64,000 nt of DNA from Paramarasmius palmivorus (lineage: Eukaryota; Basidiomycota; Agaricomycetes; Agaricales; Marasmiaceae): contig JAYKXP010000031.1 in the NCBI GenBank assembly GCA_037176845.1, positions 124,001 through 188,000 on the forward strand. The letters run 5' to 3'. Position numbers and translations under genes: made by a program. The notes under the pieces are model-generated. The model was not told the origin of the DNA. It saw only the letters and a program-made list of their open reading frames with translations, and made no database searches. Positions 2,605-51,769 of this stretch are shown here, in pieces. Position 1 is the stretch's first letter. The number at the start of each line of letters is the position of its first letter.

Positions 2605-3797
2605 ATGCGATGGTTGTCTGTAATATGGTGAGTGTCGTTCCACGTATGCGTTGAGACGTCGGCGTTCAACTGTTTTTTCAGTATAGCTGTGGTATCGTCA
2701 TGGGGTCTTAACGTAACTATCGATAGTGTCGATCCTACTACGGCTGAGCTGGAGGATGGAACTATTCGTCTTCATATTACATGGCGTGCAGATGGAGATG
2801 GCTCTTTTCAATTTGCATTGAAGAAACCTGGTGTCGATGATTTCCCAATCGCGTCCGCGTCGGCTATTGATTCAAAAAGTCCCGCGTCGGACTTCAAATT
2901 CGAGTCTGTATCCCCGGGGTATGTGTCCATTACAGGGAACGATCCGTTGCTCATAATACTTGTTTAGGAATTACTCTTTGGTTGCGTGGAATGTTGATGC
3001 GTGCGTTCTTTGGGCAGTTTATCGTTATTAGATCGTCATTACATCACTTGGGTAGCTCAAACAATGGCGTAACTTTCGCGACATTCTCTGCCGTAATTGA
3101 GGCGAGGAACCCCACTACCTCGCTGTCAGTGTCTACGACGTAAGTCAATCCCATTTCTGTAATCACAGCCACTAAATGCACGTGCAGACTCGTACATATA
3201 GTCAATGATTCACATCTGATAACAGATCTGACAACTATTTCCCCAAGCGCAATGTAACTGAATCCCATTCCCTTAGTTGAGATTACAAACGCTCAAAGCA
3301 CACGCAGATCCGATTCCACAACACCACAACCAACGTAAATGAATCACATTCCCTAAATTGCAACCGCTAAAAACACACACAGAGCCACGTCAGCTGCTCC
3401 CCAAATTCCAGCCGCTGAAGGCACACCCAGATCCAAACCCACACGTTCACTCATCATCGGCGTCATTACTGGCCCCATCTGCTTCACTGCATTAGTCCTC
3501 ATCATCGGCATATACCTTTTTCGAAAGCGACGTAAATCAAAGAACCGGACCGTTTCCCGTCCATTCAATGCACAATGTGTTCCTAAACATCCCCGTAAAC
3601 TCGAATCCACTGAGCCCGCAGAAAACACAGATGATGACAATCCCACTGTTACTGTCGCCGAAGCAATTAGGTCCCCACCTCGAATACGAAGACACAATGA
3701 CAGTGGGTGGAGACCAGGGCCGCCTCCCTCGGAGGTAGATAGCGGTAGCGGGAGTAATGTGTTGGATCTTCCACCGGAATACGAGTATGCATTGTGA
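2605..3797 (+). CDS. Single-pass membrane protein with mini-exon stalk (copy B1)
   Basis: Seven exons (2605-2627, 2682-2918, 2968-3000, 3056-3139, 3188-3253, 3308-3334, 3383-3797) give 294 residues with no frame break. A short signal peptide (MRWLSVI...) leads to an ectodomain of about 120 residues (VTIDSVDPTTAEL ... SNNGVTF). A Ser/Thr/Pro-rich stalk, a membrane helix (SLIIGVITGPICFTALVLII), a basic stop (FRKRRKSKNR) and a cytoplasmic tail ending DLPPEYEYAL follow. The tail has a PPxY motif (PPEY). I recognise no Pfam family for the ectodomain. If exon 1 is not spliced, TGA follows at codon 9, so the first intron is needed here. The stalk is coded by mini-exons, but this copy has only two separate ones, and the last exon has absorbed the 3' end of an intron whose donor was lost. 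Confidence 0.75.
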
Positions 3798-4852: not shown

Positions 4853-5292
4853 GACGTTGACGACTGCGCTTTGCCGTTCCCCACAACATCGATTCACTCT
4901 TTTTTCAATGTCACTCAACGCTGGCCTTGGCTCGAAAACCGAAACAACGCTCTCATGGGAAAAGACTAGGAGGAGAAGAACCACCAATTGTAACAAGACC
5001 CCTTCTTGAAACGCAACAGGTCGATATGCAGGAGAGAAGGTCTACGCGTTGGTGGTTGGAGATGAAACCAGGGGACGAGGTCATCAGATGAAACGATGAA
5101 ATGGCGACTGGATCGATATGGAAGGTCTCGTCGTGGGTGGATTGAACACCCATGAGAAGTTCAGCACCCCGAAACGGACCATCCACTCAAAACCAACCTT
5201 CCACCCTTTCAATGTCTCGTTCTCGACCGTGAGGGTATATAAACCTCCATCCATCCATCTTTGACCTCATCACCACCACCTCTCTTTCCAAT
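4853..5292 (+). repeat. Duplicated promoter-proximal block of the CDQYGGC genes (copy 2)
   Basis: This is the counterpart of 641-1126, with TATATAA at 5236-5242. Confidence 0.65.
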
Positions 5293-5908
5293 ATGAAGGT
5301 ACGTCCTACTCCGCCTCCCTTCCGCACAAACGCTAACAATGCCCCACGTAGCTCCTCACCCTCATCACTGTGACCGCTTACGCTCTCTCCGTATCGGGTG
5401 CTGTTCTCAAAATTAGAAGTTCGGAGTCAGATGTATACGATGGAGATGACTCTACCTCGGTGCGTTTCATTCAGCTATCTCCCTTGAGCATCGGCTAATC
5501 GAGCTGTTTACTGTTAGTGTGACCGATACGGTGGATGCGATACCTACAGCCCTCCTGCTACAAACTCCTATGATCAATACGGCGGCTGTAGCACACCTCC
5601 CCTGCCGATAGCTGCAACCAGTACTGCGGCTGTGACACTTATACTCCCCACCTACCGACAACTGCGATGAATATGGTTCATGCCCGCCTCTGGAGAAACG
5701 TTGTGATGACTCCCCACCACCGCCTCCCGCTTGCGACCAGTACGGCGGCTGTGACACCTCTTCTACTCCTACTCGTGATCAGTATGGTGGATGTGCGACC
5801 TCCAGCCCTCATCCTGCAAACGACTGCCATCAGTATGGAGGCTGCAACATCAATACCCCATCTCCTTCTGAGCGCGATCAATACGGGGGATCCGAGGAGA
5901 GTTATTAG
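5293..5908 (+). pseudogene. CDQYGGC-repeat gene, frameshifted (copy A2)
   Basis: Exon layout matches A1: 5293-5298, 5352-5459, then 5518 onward. The signal peptide and KIRSSESDVY region are intact. The third exon has two frame changes near 5600-5660, so the repeat units are spread over different frames. Several unit cysteines have changed (to Tyr, Arg or Ser). Promoter and first exons look sound, so a short secreted peptide could still be made; that is inference. Confidence 0.75.
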
Positions 5909-6014
5909 TCTCCGTCTCGGGGTTTTCAATGGGCTTCCTGCTGTATACTGTATCCCTAATCTTAATCTAAATACCCTAATTCATAGATCTTGTTGCGTGA
6001 ACAAAAAGGCAGCA

Positions 6015-6775: not shown

Positions 6776-8000
6776 ATGCGATGGTTTTCTTTATTATGGT
6801 GCGTGCCCATTTTTCACGTATGCGTTGAAACGTCGGCGTTCAACGGTTCCTTCAGTATAGCTGTGCTGTCGTCATGGGGTCTCAAGGTAACTATCGATAA
6901 TGTCGATCCTACTTCGGCTGAGCTGGAGAATGGAAGCATTTGGCTCCGTATTACATGGCGTGCAGACAGCCGTGACACCTCGTTTAGATTCGCATTGAAG
7001 AAACCTGGTGTTGATGATTTCCCAATCGCATTCATGAAGCCTATTGATTCCACAAGTTCCGCGTTGGGCTTCGAATTCGAGTCTGTATCCCCGGGGTATG
7101 TGTCCATTACAGGGAACTGTCCATTGCTCATAATACTTGTTTAGGAACTACTCTTTGGTTGCGTGGAGTAATGATGTGTGCGTTCTTTAGGCAGACTATC
7201 ACTACTAGACCGTCATTATATCACTTGGATAGCTCAAACAATGGCGTGACTCTCGGTACATTCTCTGCTATGATTGAGGCGAGGAATCCCTCTATCTCGC
7301 TGACTACCTCAGAACCAACGTAAGTCAATCCCATTTCTGTAATCACAGCCGCTAAATGCATGTGCAGATCTGTATTCGATGATCCGATAACTAGCTCCCC
7401 AAACCCAACGTAAATGAATTTCATTCGCTCATTTAAGATTACAAACGCAGAAAGTCTACGCAGATCTAACTCCAATATTCCGATACCAGAACCAACGTAA
7501 ACAAATCACATTCCTTGAATTACAACCACTGAAGACTACACAGATCCACATCCAATAATCCAATATCTAACCCCCAAGAATCAACGTGAGTCAATCCCAT
7601 TTCTTGAATCACGACCGCTAAACCCACACCCAGATCCAAACCCAACCATTCACTCATCATCGGCGCCATTGTTGGACCCGTCTTCTTCATTGCATCAATC
7701 GTCGTCGTGGGCGTATACTCCCTTAGAAAACGACGTGAATCAATGGACCGAACCGTTTTGCGTCCATTCGATGCGCCATGTGTTGCTAAAACTCATCGTA
7801 AAATCCAATTAAATGAGCTCCCACAAAACACAAATGATGACAGTACCGCCGTTGCTGTCACCGAAGCAATTAGGTCTCCACCTCGCACACGAAGACACAA
7901 TGACAGTGGGTGGAGACCAGGACCGCCTCCCTCGGAGGTTGATAGTGGTAACGGGCGTAATGTATTGGATCTTCCACCGGAATACGAGCATGCATTGTGA
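6776..8000 (+). CDS. Single-pass membrane protein with mini-exon stalk (copy B2)
   Basis: Eight exons (6776-6798, 6856-7095, 7145-7177, 7233-7319, 7368-7409, 7464-7496, 7544-7585, 7634-8000) give 288 residues in one frame. The order is signal peptide, ectodomain like B1 (VTIDNVDPTSAEL ... GNYSLVAW ... SNNGVTL), stalk, membrane helix (SLIIGAIVGPVFFIA) and tail ending LPPEYEHAL with PPEY. Three mini-exons of 42, 33 and 42 bases code stalk pieces such as SNSNIPIPEP. All stalk introns are in phase 2, so mini-exons can be added or dropped without changing the frame. Exon 1 could also be read without splicing, because the frame stays open in this copy. Confidence 0.78.
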
Positions 8001-9822: not shown

Positions 9823-10223
9823 ACGTTGACGACTTTTGCCGTTCCCCACAACATCGATCCACTCTTTCAATGCCACTCAACGCTGGCCTTGGCTCAAAAA
9901 CCTAAACAACGCTTTCATGGGACAAGACTAGGAGGAAAAGAACCACCAATTGCCACGACACCCCTTCATGGAACGCAACTGGTCGATGTGTAGGAGAGAA
10001 GGTCTATGAGATGAAACCAGGGGACGAGGACATCAGATGCAACGATGAAATGGCTACTTGATCGATATGGAAGGTCTTGTCGTCGGAAGGATTGAACACA
10101 CATGATGCCTTCGACACCCCAAAACGAAACACCCACTCAAAACCAACCTTCCACGCCTTCAATGTCTCCTTGACCGTGGGGGCTCCATCTATCTTTTACC
10201 TCATCACCACCTCTCTTTCCAAT
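9823..10223 (+). repeat. Duplicated promoter-proximal block (copy 3), TATA deleted
   Basis: This is the counterpart of 641-1126. Where copies 1 and 2 have TATATAAACC after GACCGTG(G/A)GGG, this copy runs directly into CTCCATCTATC, so the TATA box is missing (near 10180). Confidence 0.65.
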
Positions 10224-10785
10224 ATGAAGGTACGACCTACTCCGTCTGCCTTCCCCACAAACGCTAACAATGCCCCACGTAGCTCCTCACCCTCATGACT
10301 CTGACCGCTTACGCTCTCTCCATATCGGGTGCTGTTCTCAAGATGAAGAGGTCGGATTCGGATGTGTATGGTCTGATTCGGTGCGTTATCATCCATATAT
10401 CCTCAAACCGTCAGCTCATCGACATGTTTACTTGCAGTGTGATCAATACGACGTTTGCGATACCTACATCCCTCCTCCTACAAACGACTGTGACCAGTAC
10501 GGCGGCTGTGAGACACCTCCCCCTCCCAACGACTGCGACCAGTATGGTGGATGTGACGCCCCTGCTCTTCCTACCAACAGCTGCGACGAATACGGTTCTT
10601 GCCCGCCTCGAGAGAAACGTTGTGAAGAGTACGGGGGCTGCGATGAAGACACCCCACCCCCTTCTCCTCCACCTACCTGCGACCAATACGGCGGCTGCGA
10701 CACACCTCCTCCACCTCCTACCTGTGACCAGTACGGCAGCTGCGACACCGTCACTCCGCCCCCACCTACTCAGTGCCGGTCTTAG
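10224..10785 (+). CDS. CDQYGGC-repeat protein, possibly silenced (copy A3)
   Basis: Exons at 10224-10229, 10283 onward and 10438-10785 correspond to A1. The third exon is fully open and has seven C-x-x-Y-x-x-C units with Pro-rich linkers, ending in CRS. The end of exon 2 lacks 10 bases compared with A1, so the old donor (before GTGCG at 10381) would join the repeats out of frame. A donor GTGTAT a few codons earlier would restore the frame (ending SDSD then CDQYDVC). Together with the deleted TATA box this suggests a copy losing function, or one rescued by a shifted splice site. Confidence 0.6.
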
Positions 10786-10891
10786 GTTTCGTTGTTCCGT
10801 ATTTTATGGGCTTCCCGTTGTATATTGTATCCCCTAATCTTAATCTAAATACCCTGATCGATAAACCCACTGCGTGAACGATGAGACTGCA

Positions 10892-10986
10892 TCCCTGGTA
10901 GTATATCGGTCAGTACACGCGCCTGTCATTAGAGGTTTAGAGTGGGAATTGCGCGCCAAAGCTGGGTTCGACTCCCAGCCAGGGAG
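10892..10986 (+). tRNA. tRNA-Asp(GTC)-like gene with intron
   Basis: Acceptor and T arm are perfect, the anticodon GTC is at 10925-10927, the intron follows A37, and the 3' anticodon strand is GCGCGC. TTTT begins about 21 bases after the end. It lies 106 bases after CDQYGGC copy A3. Confidence 0.7.
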
Positions 10987-12300: not shown

Positions 12301-13344
12301 TCTCGGATCGTGGGTGGCTGCGTGTCTTTATTTAGATTCTTCTGATTTTGTTTGGGATTGGCCGATATAAGGACGGTCTTTGGAAAGATATTACTCGGAA
12401 CTTGTGTCCCTCATGCGTGGAGGAGATTAGGTATTGAGTGTCACGCTAGACGGTTACGGTGGCATGTTCAAGGATGAAGATATTCTGATCGTTTTCTGCC
12501 ACCCAACTCTTCGCTGGCTGACGTTTTGGTAAGTCTAATCCATAGGTTCTATATCGCTCGTCATTGTGATAGTCACGCGGTCCCATTTTCTCTCGACGAC
12601 CATCATCACAAGTGAATGATACAACTGACACCGAACTGTTATACCTATCTCCCCACAGCAGAGAAATAGCTTGCTATTTATGGAAATATTAGCGCCCTTT
12701 AGACGCTCCTATCATCGGATAAGCTGGACTGTGAACATGTTAGCGACAGGTTAAGACAAGGTTAAGATTCCGAGTCCTCGCCGCCTGTCGCTTCTTGAGG
12801 GTTTTGGTGACGCTGGTCCATAAGTTCTATATGGCTCTTCGCTGTGATATCCACATGGTCGCATTTCTTCTCGACAACCATCATCACAAGTCACTAGGTT
12901 GCCATCCTACAGATCTCAGGCAGCCGTATACTGGAGAAAGAGAAGGGCGACCTTTAACCTTGAGGGCATTTTTTCCCTGCAATCAACGTCCAGGCTGGTG
13001 CCCAATCCTTCAGCATGGTCAATGTTTTCACCTATCTGAAGCCTGACTCGGATTCACAATAAGAGCCTCTCAGCTTCTACGTGACAGCTTCTTTGGTTCT
13101 CACTGCACATTGTCGCCGCAAATCATGATCAAGAGACTATGTCGATGGAGAAACCTCATCACGATTCAATTCTATCCTCCTTGATGATCATCTTCAGTGT
13201 ATCACTATTCGTAACAAAAAGAACGGACCACCTCAGTTGATAGGTGATGATCAGATGGAGTAGCAAATAAAATCATCAGCGGGATGGGGCTAGTTCAGTA
13301 CTGTTTAATCCCTTCCCATATCACGACTCCAGCTACCTGCAATA

Positions 13345-14978
13345 ATGCGATGGTTGGCTATATTATGGTGCGGGTTTCTGCTTCGTATATGCGTCGATAC
13401 GATGGCCTTTAACAGTTCTTTCAGTATAGCTCCAGTATCGTCATGGGGTTTCAACGTAACTATCGATAATGTCGATCCTATTTCGGCTGAGCTGAAGGAT
13501 TCAACGATTCGGCTCCATATTACATGGCATGCAGAAGCAGACGGCTCTTTTCAATTTGCATTGATGACATTTGGCGTTGACAATATCCCAGTCGCGTTCA
13601 GTCAGGCTGTCGATTCCAGAAGTTCTCCGTTGGACTTGAACTTCGAACCTGTACCCCTGGGGTATTTTTTCTTTGTAAAAAATGATTTATTGCGGATAAC
13701 ACTGGCTTAGGAGCTACAATCTGGTTGTTTGGAATGATGAAAGGTACGTCGTTTGAGCTGTTTCTTTTTTTATTACAGGACCTTCATAATATCCCTTGGG
13801 CAGTGTGAACAATGGAGTAGATCTCGATAGGTTCAATGTTCCAATCCGGGTAAAGGATCCCGATCATACGACGCCTAGTTCTACTTCACCAACGTGAGTT
13901 AATTCAATTCTGCAATCACAGTCGCTAAAGCCACATCCAGATCCAGATCCACTGTCCCGACAACTAGTTCCCAAACCCCAACGTAAATCAATCCCACTCT
14001 TGTAATTATGAACGCTAACAGCACGCGCAGGTCCAAACCGAATAGTCCGATACCAGAATCAACGTAAATGAATCACGTTCCCTGGATTGCAACCACTAAA
14101 GGGGCACACAGATCCACGATATCTGATTCCCCAGAACCAACGTGAGTCAACTCCAATCCTGTAATCACAGCCGCCAAAGGCACGCGCAGTTCCAAGTCCA
14201 ATGACTCAATACCTAATTCCCCAAACTCAACGTAAATCTATTCCATTCCCTTAGTTATAGTTTCAAAAGCTGAACGCACACGCAGAACCAAATCCAACAA
14301 TTCGACACCAGGACTATCGTCAGTGAATCCTATTCCTTGAATTGCAACCGCTAAAGACACACAGATCCACATCCAATAATCCGATATCTAATTCGCAAGA
14401 ACCAACGTGAATGAATCCTATTTTCTTGATCGCAACCGCTAAAGACACGCGCAGATCCCATTCCAATAATCCGATACCAGAGCCAACGTAAACGATTCAC
14501 GTTCCTTGAATTACAACTACTAAAAGCATACATAGATCCACGATATTTGATTCCCCGGAGCCAACGTGAGTCAATCCCAGTTCTTCAATCACAACCGCTA
14601 ACGGCTCACAGATCTAAATCCAATCGTGCACTCATCATCGGTGCCATTATTGGACCAATTTGCTTCATCGCACTAATCCTCGTCGTGGGCGTATACTTCC
14701 TTCGAAAACGACGTGAATCAAAAAACCGGACCATTCCTCTTCCACTCGATGCGCTATTCACCCTTACACCCCATCCTAATGTCGAATCCACCAAGCCCCC
14801 AGTAAACAGGAATGATAACAATCCCACTGATACTGTCACCGGGGCAATTAGATCCCCACCTCGGATACGAAGACACAATGACAGCGGGTGGAGACCAGGG
14901 CCTCCGCCCTCAGAGATTGATAGTGGTAGCGGGAGTAATGTGTTAGATCTTCCACCGGAATACGAGCATGCATTGTGA
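13345..14978 (+). CDS. Single-pass membrane protein with expanded mini-exon array (copy B3)
   Basis: Thirteen exons: 13345-13367, 13425-13661, 13711-13743, 13804-13893, 13941-13982, 14031-14063, 14112-14141, 14190-14231, 14286-14318, 14365-14406, 14455-14487, 14536-14565, 14612-14978. They sum to 1035 bases, 344 residues plus stop, in one frame. The ectodomain matches B1 and B2; the membrane helix is ALIIGAIIGPICFIALILVV, followed by RKRRESKNR and a tail ending LPPEYEHAL. Eight consecutive mini-exons of 42, 33, 30, 42, 33, 42, 33 and 30 bases code Ser/Thr/Pro stalk pieces such as STSNNPISNSQEP and SHSNNPIPEP. The size order shows repeats of a 42-33-30 block. Each intron is about 46-57 bases, starts GTGAGTC, GTAAATG or close to it, and ends with a CACACAG- or CACGCGCAG-like acceptor. 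Confidence 0.8.
13894..14611 (+). repeat. Tandem intron plus mini-exon array
   Basis: Nine introns and eight mini-exons of copy B3 form a degenerate tandem repeat with a unit near 80 bases. Both the coding and intron parts repeat. Every donor follows a CAAC-like exon end (one ends in CTATC) and every mini-exon starts near ATCCA, so the frame stays 2+3n+1 throughout. Confidence 0.8.
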
Positions 14979-33585: not shown

Positions 33586-34226
33586 CTAATAGCTCTGATC
33601 ATCGCAACCGCCGTACTGGTCACAGGTAGGAGGAGCGGGAGGAGTCCAGTCGTCGCAGCCGCCGTATTGGTCGCAGTTGTTGGTAGGAGGAGGAGTCCAA
33701 TCGTCACATCCGCCGTAAGTGTCGCAAGTAGGGGGTGTGGAAGGAGGAGGCGTCCAATCGCAACCGCCGTATTGATCACAGTCCTTGGCAGGAGGTGTGT
33801 AGGTGTCGCAACCGCCGTAAGTGTCGCAAGTAGGGGGTGTAGAAGGTGGGGTCCAATCGCAGCCGCCATACTGGTCACAGTCCTTGGCAGGAGGAGTGTA
33901 GGTGTCACAACCGCCGTATGTGTCACAGGTAGGAGGGGGAGTGTCGCAGCCTCCATACTGGTCGCAGGTAGGTGGTGGGGTGTAGGTGTCGCAGCCGCCG
34001 TATTGGTCGCAGGAGCCGTACTAAGAAGGTCTTATCAGTACCTGGATGACGGTGAGAGAAGGCAGGGAACGCACCGAGTCATCTCCACCGTAGACATCTG
34101 ACCTCTTCTTGATAGCAGCACCCGAGACGGAGAGTGCGAATGCGAGAGTGATCAGGGTGATGAACTGTCATGGGCGTTGTTAGCCTTCTTTGTCACTCGA
34201 AATGAGACGGAGGAGCGTACCTTCAT
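33586..34226 (-). CDS. Secreted CDQYGGC-repeat protein, intact (copy A4)
   Basis: Exons 34226-34221, 34164-34075 and 34020-33586 give 176 residues. MK, then a signal peptide (FITLITLAFALSVSGAAI) and KKR before SDVYGGDDS. Ten YG-type units follow; most read CDQYGGC or CDTYGGC, joined by TPPPT, TYTPPAKD and DWTPP linkers; the ending is CDDQSY. This is the longest copy, and Trp-containing linkers set the minus-strand lineage apart from A1-A3. TATATAACC on the coding strand (34335-34342) is a plausible TATA box. The plus-strand frame 33295-34101 across the gene is an antisense shadow that also crosses a tRNA-like element. Confidence 0.85.
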
Positions 34227-50815: not shown

Positions 50816-51433
50816 CGATTTGGGACTTGTATGGACATCTCGGGAACATTGGTAATACTGTATAATCAAAACCTGTCTTCCCCCATGTATAGCTTTAGGA
50901 TGGTATTCCAGAGTCTAGATACCAAATACTTAACTTCCTTGTGCTTTTGGGCTTGATATGAGTAATGAGTCAACTACTATTCACAAGGCGCCTGATGGGC
51001 GTTAATATTTCCAAAAGTAGCGGGTCTTCAGCCGAATGAATGTTTGTATCGTATTTCCGCCTAACCTACGCAAGCTCCGTGATTGTTTATCTTGAGATTG
51101 TTACATCGCACATTCAAGAACGGTTCCGAATCCAACCGAATACGAACACATCTCGATGGTAGATGATTTGTAAATACGATGGCTGGTAGGCCACCCTTTA
51201 TCACTACCCCAAGTGATGAAACCATATTAAACCGGTCAGGTCTCCCCTGATCTGACTGCAGCCCTTTTTGCGTGGCAGGTGCTGTAGAGTAAATGCCCAG
51301 GCTACCCATGTTTATCCCCGTATAGGTAAGTACATCGTCTGTTATACTACTACTTGAGGACTGGAAGGACTAGCAGTCGACTATCAGCGCGGAATTTACA
51401 CCTGAGACTCAGTGCGACAAGACGTACCCTAAG

Positions 51434-51522
51434 TCCCTGGTAGATTATCGGTCATACACATGCCTGTCATTCCCAGCTACTCCCAGGTCCGCGCGAAAGC
51501 TGAGTTCGGCTCAGTCGAGGAT
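51434..51522 (+). pseudogene. tRNA-Asp(GTC)-like, worn 3' half
   Basis: TCCCTGGTAGATTATCGGTC and CCTGTCAT are kept. The T arm is CTGAGTTCGGCTCAG and the 3' acceptor TCGAGGA does not pair. Confidence 0.5.
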
Positions 51523-51688
51523 GCAGGTAGGAAATTCTTGGTACACGGGCTCGAAACGAACGAACTTCCAAAGCAAGCTTGATCTGATTGATCCAAAAAG
51601 ATTATGGTGCTTCTGTAATGCATGGTGATCACGGAAGAACGTCGAATTCACCTGGATCTCACACTCAAATCACAAGAACCACCCTAAC

Positions 51689-51769
51689 TCCCTGATAGTC
51701 TATCAGCTATACACGCGCCTAGAGTTCCCAGTCAGCGCGTGAAGCTGGGTTCGGCTCCCAGCCAGGGAG
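51689..51769 (+). pseudogene. tRNA-like element, subfamily 2
   Basis: TCCCTGATAGTCTATCAGCT, stem CGCGC/GCGCG and an intact 3' half. The loop is CTAGAG, so GTC is absent. The B box is GGTTCGGCTCC. Confidence 0.5.

Follow-up and report, generated by a model that had tools for sequence, protein, structure and literature searches.

The locus examined here raises the question of how the 718 nt that separate the extracellular domain of a gene called B3 from its membrane helix are read, and how such a stretch came into being. B3 lies within a 64,000-nt stretch of DNA, hereafter the window, that covers contig positions 124001-188000 of Paramarasmius palmivorus, whose assembly amounts to 68.3 Mb in 393 contigs. 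P. palmivorus is a fungus of oil palm and cacao and belongs to the family Marasmiaceae. Under the name M. palmivorus it figures among the agents of cacao thread blight (PMC8581569). The explanation that we favor, and consider quite probable, is that B3 is the gene of a single-pass surface protein with a stalk built from tandemly copied units, each comprising an intron together with a symmetric mini-exon.

The B3 gene is found on the plus strand. Its predicted first exon, which would encode the start of a signal peptide, occupies 13345-13367 with a donor at 13368, and was placed by analogy with the public models of its paralogs, of which P0002-P0004 begin with MRW(L/F)..CIA. The main ectodomain exon (13425-13661) is likewise based on the public paralog models and is 56-59% identical to the ectodomain exons of four paralogs in the same cluster. 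A second ectodomain exon of 33 nt (13711-13743) is delimited by GT-AG borders, and the corresponding segment, YSLVA, is present in P0001-P0005. The third (13804-13893), defined from the sequence and a scripted splice border, ends in phase 2 and adjoins the array. On the far side of the array, the membrane helix and the cytoplasmic tail are assigned to one exon (14612-14978), which is identified by at least 117 tail matches in the P. palmivorus genome (150 of 203 candidates scored) and by the motif PPEY at 14952-14963. The introns of B3 that lie outside the array are, as read, 49-60 nt in length.

The array itself (13894-14611) would consist of eight mini-exons and nine introns between the ectodomain and the membrane helix. 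The first-pass annotation had proposed mini-exon lengths of 42, 33, 30, 42, 33, 42, 33, and 30 nt, and borders placed by script agree with them exactly. Intron 1 (13894-13940, 47 nt) has a scripted border and the donor GTGAGT. It is followed on the plus strand by mini-exons that were delimited by scripted borders and assigned to types A, B, and C by a tree of units: mini-exon 1 (13941-13982, 42 nt, type A), mini-exon 2 (14031-14063, 33 nt, type B), mini-exon 3 (14112-14141, 30 nt, type C), mini-exon 4 (14190-14231, 42 nt, type A), mini-exon 5 (14286-14318, 33 nt, type B), mini-exon 6 (14365-14406, 42 nt, type C), mini-exon 7 (14455-14487, 33 nt, type B), and mini-exon 8 (14536-14565, 30 nt, type C). 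The last array intron (14566-14611) stands at the same position as the single intron that precedes the membrane exon in a relative, the C93 relative (L010). The nine introns measure 47, 48, 48, 48, 54, 46, 48, 48, and 46 nt, and all are in phase 2.

All of these introns are GT-AG by construction, as the borders were placed there. Beyond this, base 4 of the donor is A in 9/9 introns, the acceptor is CAG in eight and TAG in one, and a CT[AG]A branch-like motif is found in eight of the nine. Every mini-exon length is a multiple of three, which is not true of all the intron lengths. The borders and lengths thus bear out the earlier proposal that phase 2 introns and mini-exons in multiples of three make a change in copy number safe for the reading frame. 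Put end to end, the mini-exons form a stop-free run of 95 codons that enters the membrane helix in frame, but this test is a weak one since a second frame is open too and 2.0% of shuffles are without a stop.

Comparing the first 16 kb of the window with itself yields E-values of 3e-50 (offset 425) and 1e-43 (offset 248), and the array repeat shows 76% identity, ungapped, over 249 nt. Together, these E-values and the ungapped identity exclude a chance origin of the repeats. On gapped pairwise alignment the array introns are 64-89% alike, a measure that was dropped as a test, with shuffles of one B3 pair (n=300) having a mean of 0.70 against 0.74 for the real pairs. The case for the predicted array rests on the splice signals, the symmetric lengths, and the paralog models, and each mini-exon is presumably spliced in vivo.

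The protein product of B3 would have a signal peptide followed by a small ectodomain, a stalk rich in Ser, Thr, Pro, and Asn, a membrane helix, and a tail with PPxY. A beginning that resembles a signal peptide, together with the membrane helix, suggests that it is exported. A Ser/Thr/Pro-rich surface stalk had been proposed at the outset, and the composition is in keeping with this: Ser and Thr make up 43 of the 96 residues, and Ser, Thr, Pro, and Asn together 71 of the 96. Such a stalk would be suited to O-glycosylation. The PPxY motif is a ligand of WW domains, for example those of Rsp5/Nedd4 ligases. It is found at the end of the tail in 71 of 76 examined members, a share that is biased upwards because the tails were found through their likeness to that of B3, and the tails also have a DSGWRP-like stretch. 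The tail family is a very large P. palmivorus set of single-pass proteins, which differ in their extracellular parts and have the tail in common.

Searches with Pfam gave nothing above the cut-offs for the ectodomain of B3 and its paralogs, and a PDB sequence search with P0004 gave a best E of 0.42. With PF10342 (Kre9/KNH) there was no match for B3, P0002, P0004, or P0005 at E <= 1, and the joined fragment of family member L014 scored 17.0 against a cut-off of 24.6. With PF04478 (Mid2-like wall sensors) there was no match for B3, P0002, or P0004, and P0005 scored 12.3 bits against a cut-off of 23.2. The distant family members P0006 and P0007 carry the UniRef label 'Mid2 domain-containing'. A low-confidence structure model of P0004, the public model of paralog B2 (five sequences; mean pLDDT 44.6, pTM 0.27), places strands in the ectodomain and a helix at 173-204, and leaves residues 115-172, which correspond to the stalk, devoid of secondary structure. 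At this level of confidence the model supports the layout of the protein, and no fold.

B3 is one of five clustered paralogs that have 1-8 usable units, with U1 and U2 located directly upstream (L009) of B1-B3. Paralog B1 (2605-3797, plus strand) has predicted mini-exons at 3188-3253 (66 nt) and 3308-3334 (27 nt); its former last unit has merged into the coding sequence, and the old intron end reads as coding. Paralog B2 (6776-8000, plus strand) has predicted mini-exons at 7368-7409, 7464-7496, and 7544-7585 (42, 33, and 42 nt). From its splice signals U1 is read as having four mini-exons, of 42, 33, 66, and 30 nt. U2 retains one intact 42-nt unit along with two decayed ones, of which one is without an acceptor and the other has an in-frame stop. 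All of the tabulated mini-exons of the five genes are multiples of three and measure 27-66 nt, and the units, taken as mini-exon plus intron, measure 75-120 nt. The public models P0002 (U1) and P0004 (B2) contain the mini-exons as read here; P0001 (U2) omits the two decayed units, and P0003 (B1) omits both B1 mini-exons. The counts of two, three, and eight mini-exons that had been given for B1, B2, and B3 follow from the sequence, with the public model in agreement for B2.

Protein searches turned up no public model of B3; the candidates ran from about 200 to 637 aa with B3 as the query and from 79 to 250 aa with its tail. The B3 search returned five proteins at E <= 10, all of them from P. 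palmivorus, and the tail search, with candidates restricted by length, returned nothing at E <= 0.1. Both searches require shared 5-residue words, so that absence from other species is weak evidence. A protein search with L017, a distant family member, matched three proteins, again all from P. palmivorus. Of the proteins related to B3, P0005 has a B-type ectodomain (57% identity at the matching locus, across query residues 2-82) and a different membrane and tail part. A B-type ectodomain on another membrane/tail region is found at L029 (C195:20501-23500) and L030 (C93:35001-38000), which represents a domain swap within the genome.

Further observations concern the surroundings of these genes. 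In B1 (window 2605-2700) and U2 (L009 5824-5920) the unspliced reading of the signal peptide hits a TGA, and these two genes therefore need a signal-peptide intron; the same reading is open in B2, B3, and U1. Secreted-looking genes with CDQYGGCD-like repeats alternate with B1-B3, at approximately 1130-1720, 5290-5910, and 10220-10790, and one is also found at 33598-34013 on the minus strand. Elements resembling tRNAs occur at 1846-1943, 10892-10986, 51417-51757, and elsewhere, several of them with odd anticodon calls. Some of these elements come after CDQYGG genes and some are repeated fragments, perhaps SINE-like.

The history of the array can be approached through a tree of 21 units, each consisting of a mini-exon and the intron that follows it. 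Three types, A, B, and C, are found, sorted mostly by position. The split of A+C from B has a support of 93, the C group 84, and the A group 71, and many inner nodes are weak. The order of units in B3 is ABC-ABC-BC, a three-unit higher-order repeat. In B2 and U2 the order is ABC, in U1 it is ABBC (the second B with a support of 24), and in B1 it is AB plus a fused remnant whose type is not assignable. The first-pass annotation had described the repeat as a unit of one intron plus one exon, which holds for the tandem units, but the tree indicates that the block is really the three-exon A-B-C. Since the units sort by type across the paralogs, the array most likely predates their split, and B3 most likely grew by duplication of blocks.

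The likely seed of the array is a single ancestral intron before the membrane exon. In the C93 relative, the single pre-membrane intron is similar to the introns of the cluster, with 0/1000 shuffles reaching its best score when GT/AG are excluded, and 7/1000 shuffles reach the score of the corresponding comparison for the C104 relative. In an alignment of 26 introns (24 from the cluster and two from the outgroup), the A of the branch region never varies, nor do two T columns, whereas the mean column majority is 0.79; the GT and AG are invariant in this alignment by construction.

In the mechanism that we propose, an old phase-2 intron and a short piece of exon would have been duplicated in tandem to give the A-B-C array before the paralogs split. 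Blocks of this array would then have been duplicated again in B3, in this order, to give ABC-ABC-BC; the probable route would be unequal crossing over or else slippage during replication. Each short intron would be removed singly, so that the stalk would have 96 residues in B3 and fewer in the paralogs. As the units are in phase 2 and are multiples of three, the gain, loss, or skipping of one would shift the B3 stalk by 10-14 residues and leave the frame intact. Because the units are neutral to the frame they can also decay, and splicing can pass over a broken one. Stalk length therein would probably evolve by duplication and decay of units.

Within the mini-exons, pooled pS is 0.26 and pN 0.20 (22 within-type pairs, which are non-independent), and pN/pS per type ranges from near 1 for A down to about 0.2 for the 42-nt C. 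An earlier grouping, made before the tree (16 pairs), gave a pS of 0.26 and a pN of 0.21. The amino-acid constraint on the mini-exons is thus weak, which fits a disordered stalk, and the reading frame is nonetheless preserved. This weak constraint, the second open frame, the omission by P0003, the failure to find a public model of B3 itself, and the weak inner nodes of the tree were counted against the proposed explanation.

Arrays of this kind are found at other loci of the tail family. A 470-base query from the array gave seven DNA matches, all within the five cluster genes. When up to three mismatches were allowed, a 23-base pattern matched at 26 sites, 21 of them in the cluster and five scattered, each of the five with three mismatches; the reversed control gave four. 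Recurrence was assessed in the 76 of 117 tails that have at least 900 nt upstream, which amount to fewer than 76 independent genes because eight near-identical pairs are among them, by a self-comparison that would miss diverged arrays. Tandem intron+exon units were found in 9/76 tails at five loci, these being the five cluster genes, L011, L014, L018, and L074. A tenth gene, at a sixth locus, is L044, the tail of which falls outside the 76 with too little sequence upstream.

The repeated exon is 21 nt in L011 (minus strand), 162 nt in L074 (1085-1362), and 48 nt in L044 (minus strand), and in each case the open frame was followed into the membrane exon. In L014 (4878-5157) there are repeated exons of 60 and 60 nt, with the open frame followed into the ectodomain, and in L018 (3102-3389) of 18, 21, and 30 nt, with the open frame followed for 121 nt. 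At all of the verified loci each repeated exon has a length divisible by three and contains no stop in the frame that is open downstream. The arrays of L014 and L018 precede the ectodomain, away from the membrane, and the phenomenon would therefore concern extracellular linkers generally. Compared with the cluster introns, those of the five other loci score 15-18, and among themselves they score 10-18. These values are close to the mean of the shuffles, about 16, a yardstick taken from the outgroup intron test, and so fit independent origins.

Two of the 76, L026 and L064, have coding repeats that are read as intronless, and the self-match of L028 is a low-complexity repeat. Other self-matches, in L012 (offset 516), L013/L014 (offset 170), L015, L033, L059, L009, and at C93:68683, lie outside the counts. 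Positions 15001-64000 of the window served as a small control, in which no further intron+exon array was recognized and three short repeats fell outside the classes. Self-matches at 12523, 30068, 46747, and 53841 of the window have no assigned class.

This recurrence bears on a serious alternative, which we regard as possible though not as our first choice: that tandem duplication is random in an intron-dense, disordered stalk, where symmetric units are harmless and stalk length goes unselected. It shares a single gene model with the best explanation, and the two differ solely on selection. The weak amino-acid constraint, the persistence of decayed units, and the two family members with apparently intronless coding repeats are all in line with it, but the splice sites are intact in all eight B3 units, and the arrays recur at six loci of one family, for which the control is the rest of the window only. 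Under the explanation that we prefer, selection would see the length of the stalk or its glycosylation. A much wider proposal, that more than 100 receptor-like surface proteins with the PPxY tail use the units as a fast-evolving dial for the length of their extracellular linkers, with copy number varying by strain and by isoform as in the schistosome mucins, is doubtful.

Fungal splicing mostly recognizes its sites across the short intron, and this disfavors the skipping of intact mini-exons. Regulated skipping that generates many stalk lengths from one gene is unlikely, even though symmetric units in a single phase would leave any subset in frame and some units are skipped in deposited paralog models; those models may be the choices of a predictor, and the skipped units of U2 look broken. 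Also unlikely is that 13894-14611 is spliced out whole as one phase-2 intron with a decaying satellite inside. In its favor, the phases of the intron 1 donor and the intron 9 acceptor match, which would leave the frame intact after such a skip, the public models of U2 and B1 omit units, and the mini-exons have low amino-acid constraint. Against it, every B3 unit retains its splice signals and 8/9 introns have a branch-like motif, the exon lengths and not the intron lengths are all multiples of three, units are present in the public models of both B2 and U1, and 718 nt would be unusual beside the 49-60 nt of the other B3 introns as read.

Tandem copying of intron and mini-exon together, the reading that we favor for B3, has counterparts elsewhere. 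In spider flagelliform silk, a large structural secreted protein, exon plus intron is repeated as a module, and B3 is similar in that the intron repeats along with the exon. Modular spider silk genes have been compared with SmPoMuc of Schistosoma mansoni, in which a 27-bp exon and its flanking introns are tandemly repeated at most about 20 times per gene (PMC2576457). As in B3, exon and introns of SmPoMuc are copied together, the length of a mucin-like region is set in this way, and genes differ in copy number. However, as described there, SmPoMuc units measure about 1 kb and have long introns, are highly similar, and give polymorphic transcripts, whereas the P. palmivorus units are 75-120 nt. 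The same text describes the Coccidioides surface protein SOWgp as having repeated exons with associated introns; its repeats are nearly identical and undergo concerted evolution, in contrast to the diverged units of P. palmivorus (PMC2576457).

A counterpart in another basidiomycete is CNN00420 of Cryptococcus neoformans, for which intron gain by expansion of intron-containing coding repeats of about 107 nt is reported, with EST support and repeat numbers that differ among strains (PMC2395259). As in B3, the coding repeat comprises exon ends and a whole intron, and copy number changes by duplication; the B3 unit, too, is a whole intron with exon sequence, as in repeat expansion of the CNN00420 type. 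The CNN00420 introns are, in that account, identical or near-identical, whereas those of B3 are 64-89% alike on gapped alignment, and the P. palmivorus cluster differs further in its exons of 27-66 nt, its three-unit order, and its series of five paralogs. The micro-exon genes of schistosomes encode secreted proteins in numerous short exons, most of which have lengths divisible by three (PMC10526429). B3 likewise has a run of short symmetric exons, 27-66 nt in the cluster, in a predicted exported protein, but the introns of micro-exon genes are given as 0.1 to 5 kb and those of B3 are about 50 nt and repeat copies of one another. A search that requires shared 5-residue words, carried to E <= 10, showed no homology of B3 to schistosome MEG proteins. 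B3 thus appears to work like the micro-exon genes, with no sign of membership among them.

The mechanism of the array is itself already known from CNN00420 and SmPoMuc. Among the papers listed by the literature searches, none was concerned, judging by its title or the opening of its abstract, with this gene family or an array of this sort in P. palmivorus. In comparison with these readings, and as far as they go, what is new here is the three-unit order, the very short exons with introns of about 50 nt, the paralog series with decay, and the recurrence at six loci.

The locus also exposes a weak point of gene prediction, in that a gene with eight mini-exons such as B3 is without a public model in the database searched. 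For the family, the multi-paralog series would show introns multiplying together with tiny exons, in units that are born, diverge, and die in frame. The array would thereby tie intron gain to variation in surface proteins, and its recurrence within one family makes selection on linker length testable.
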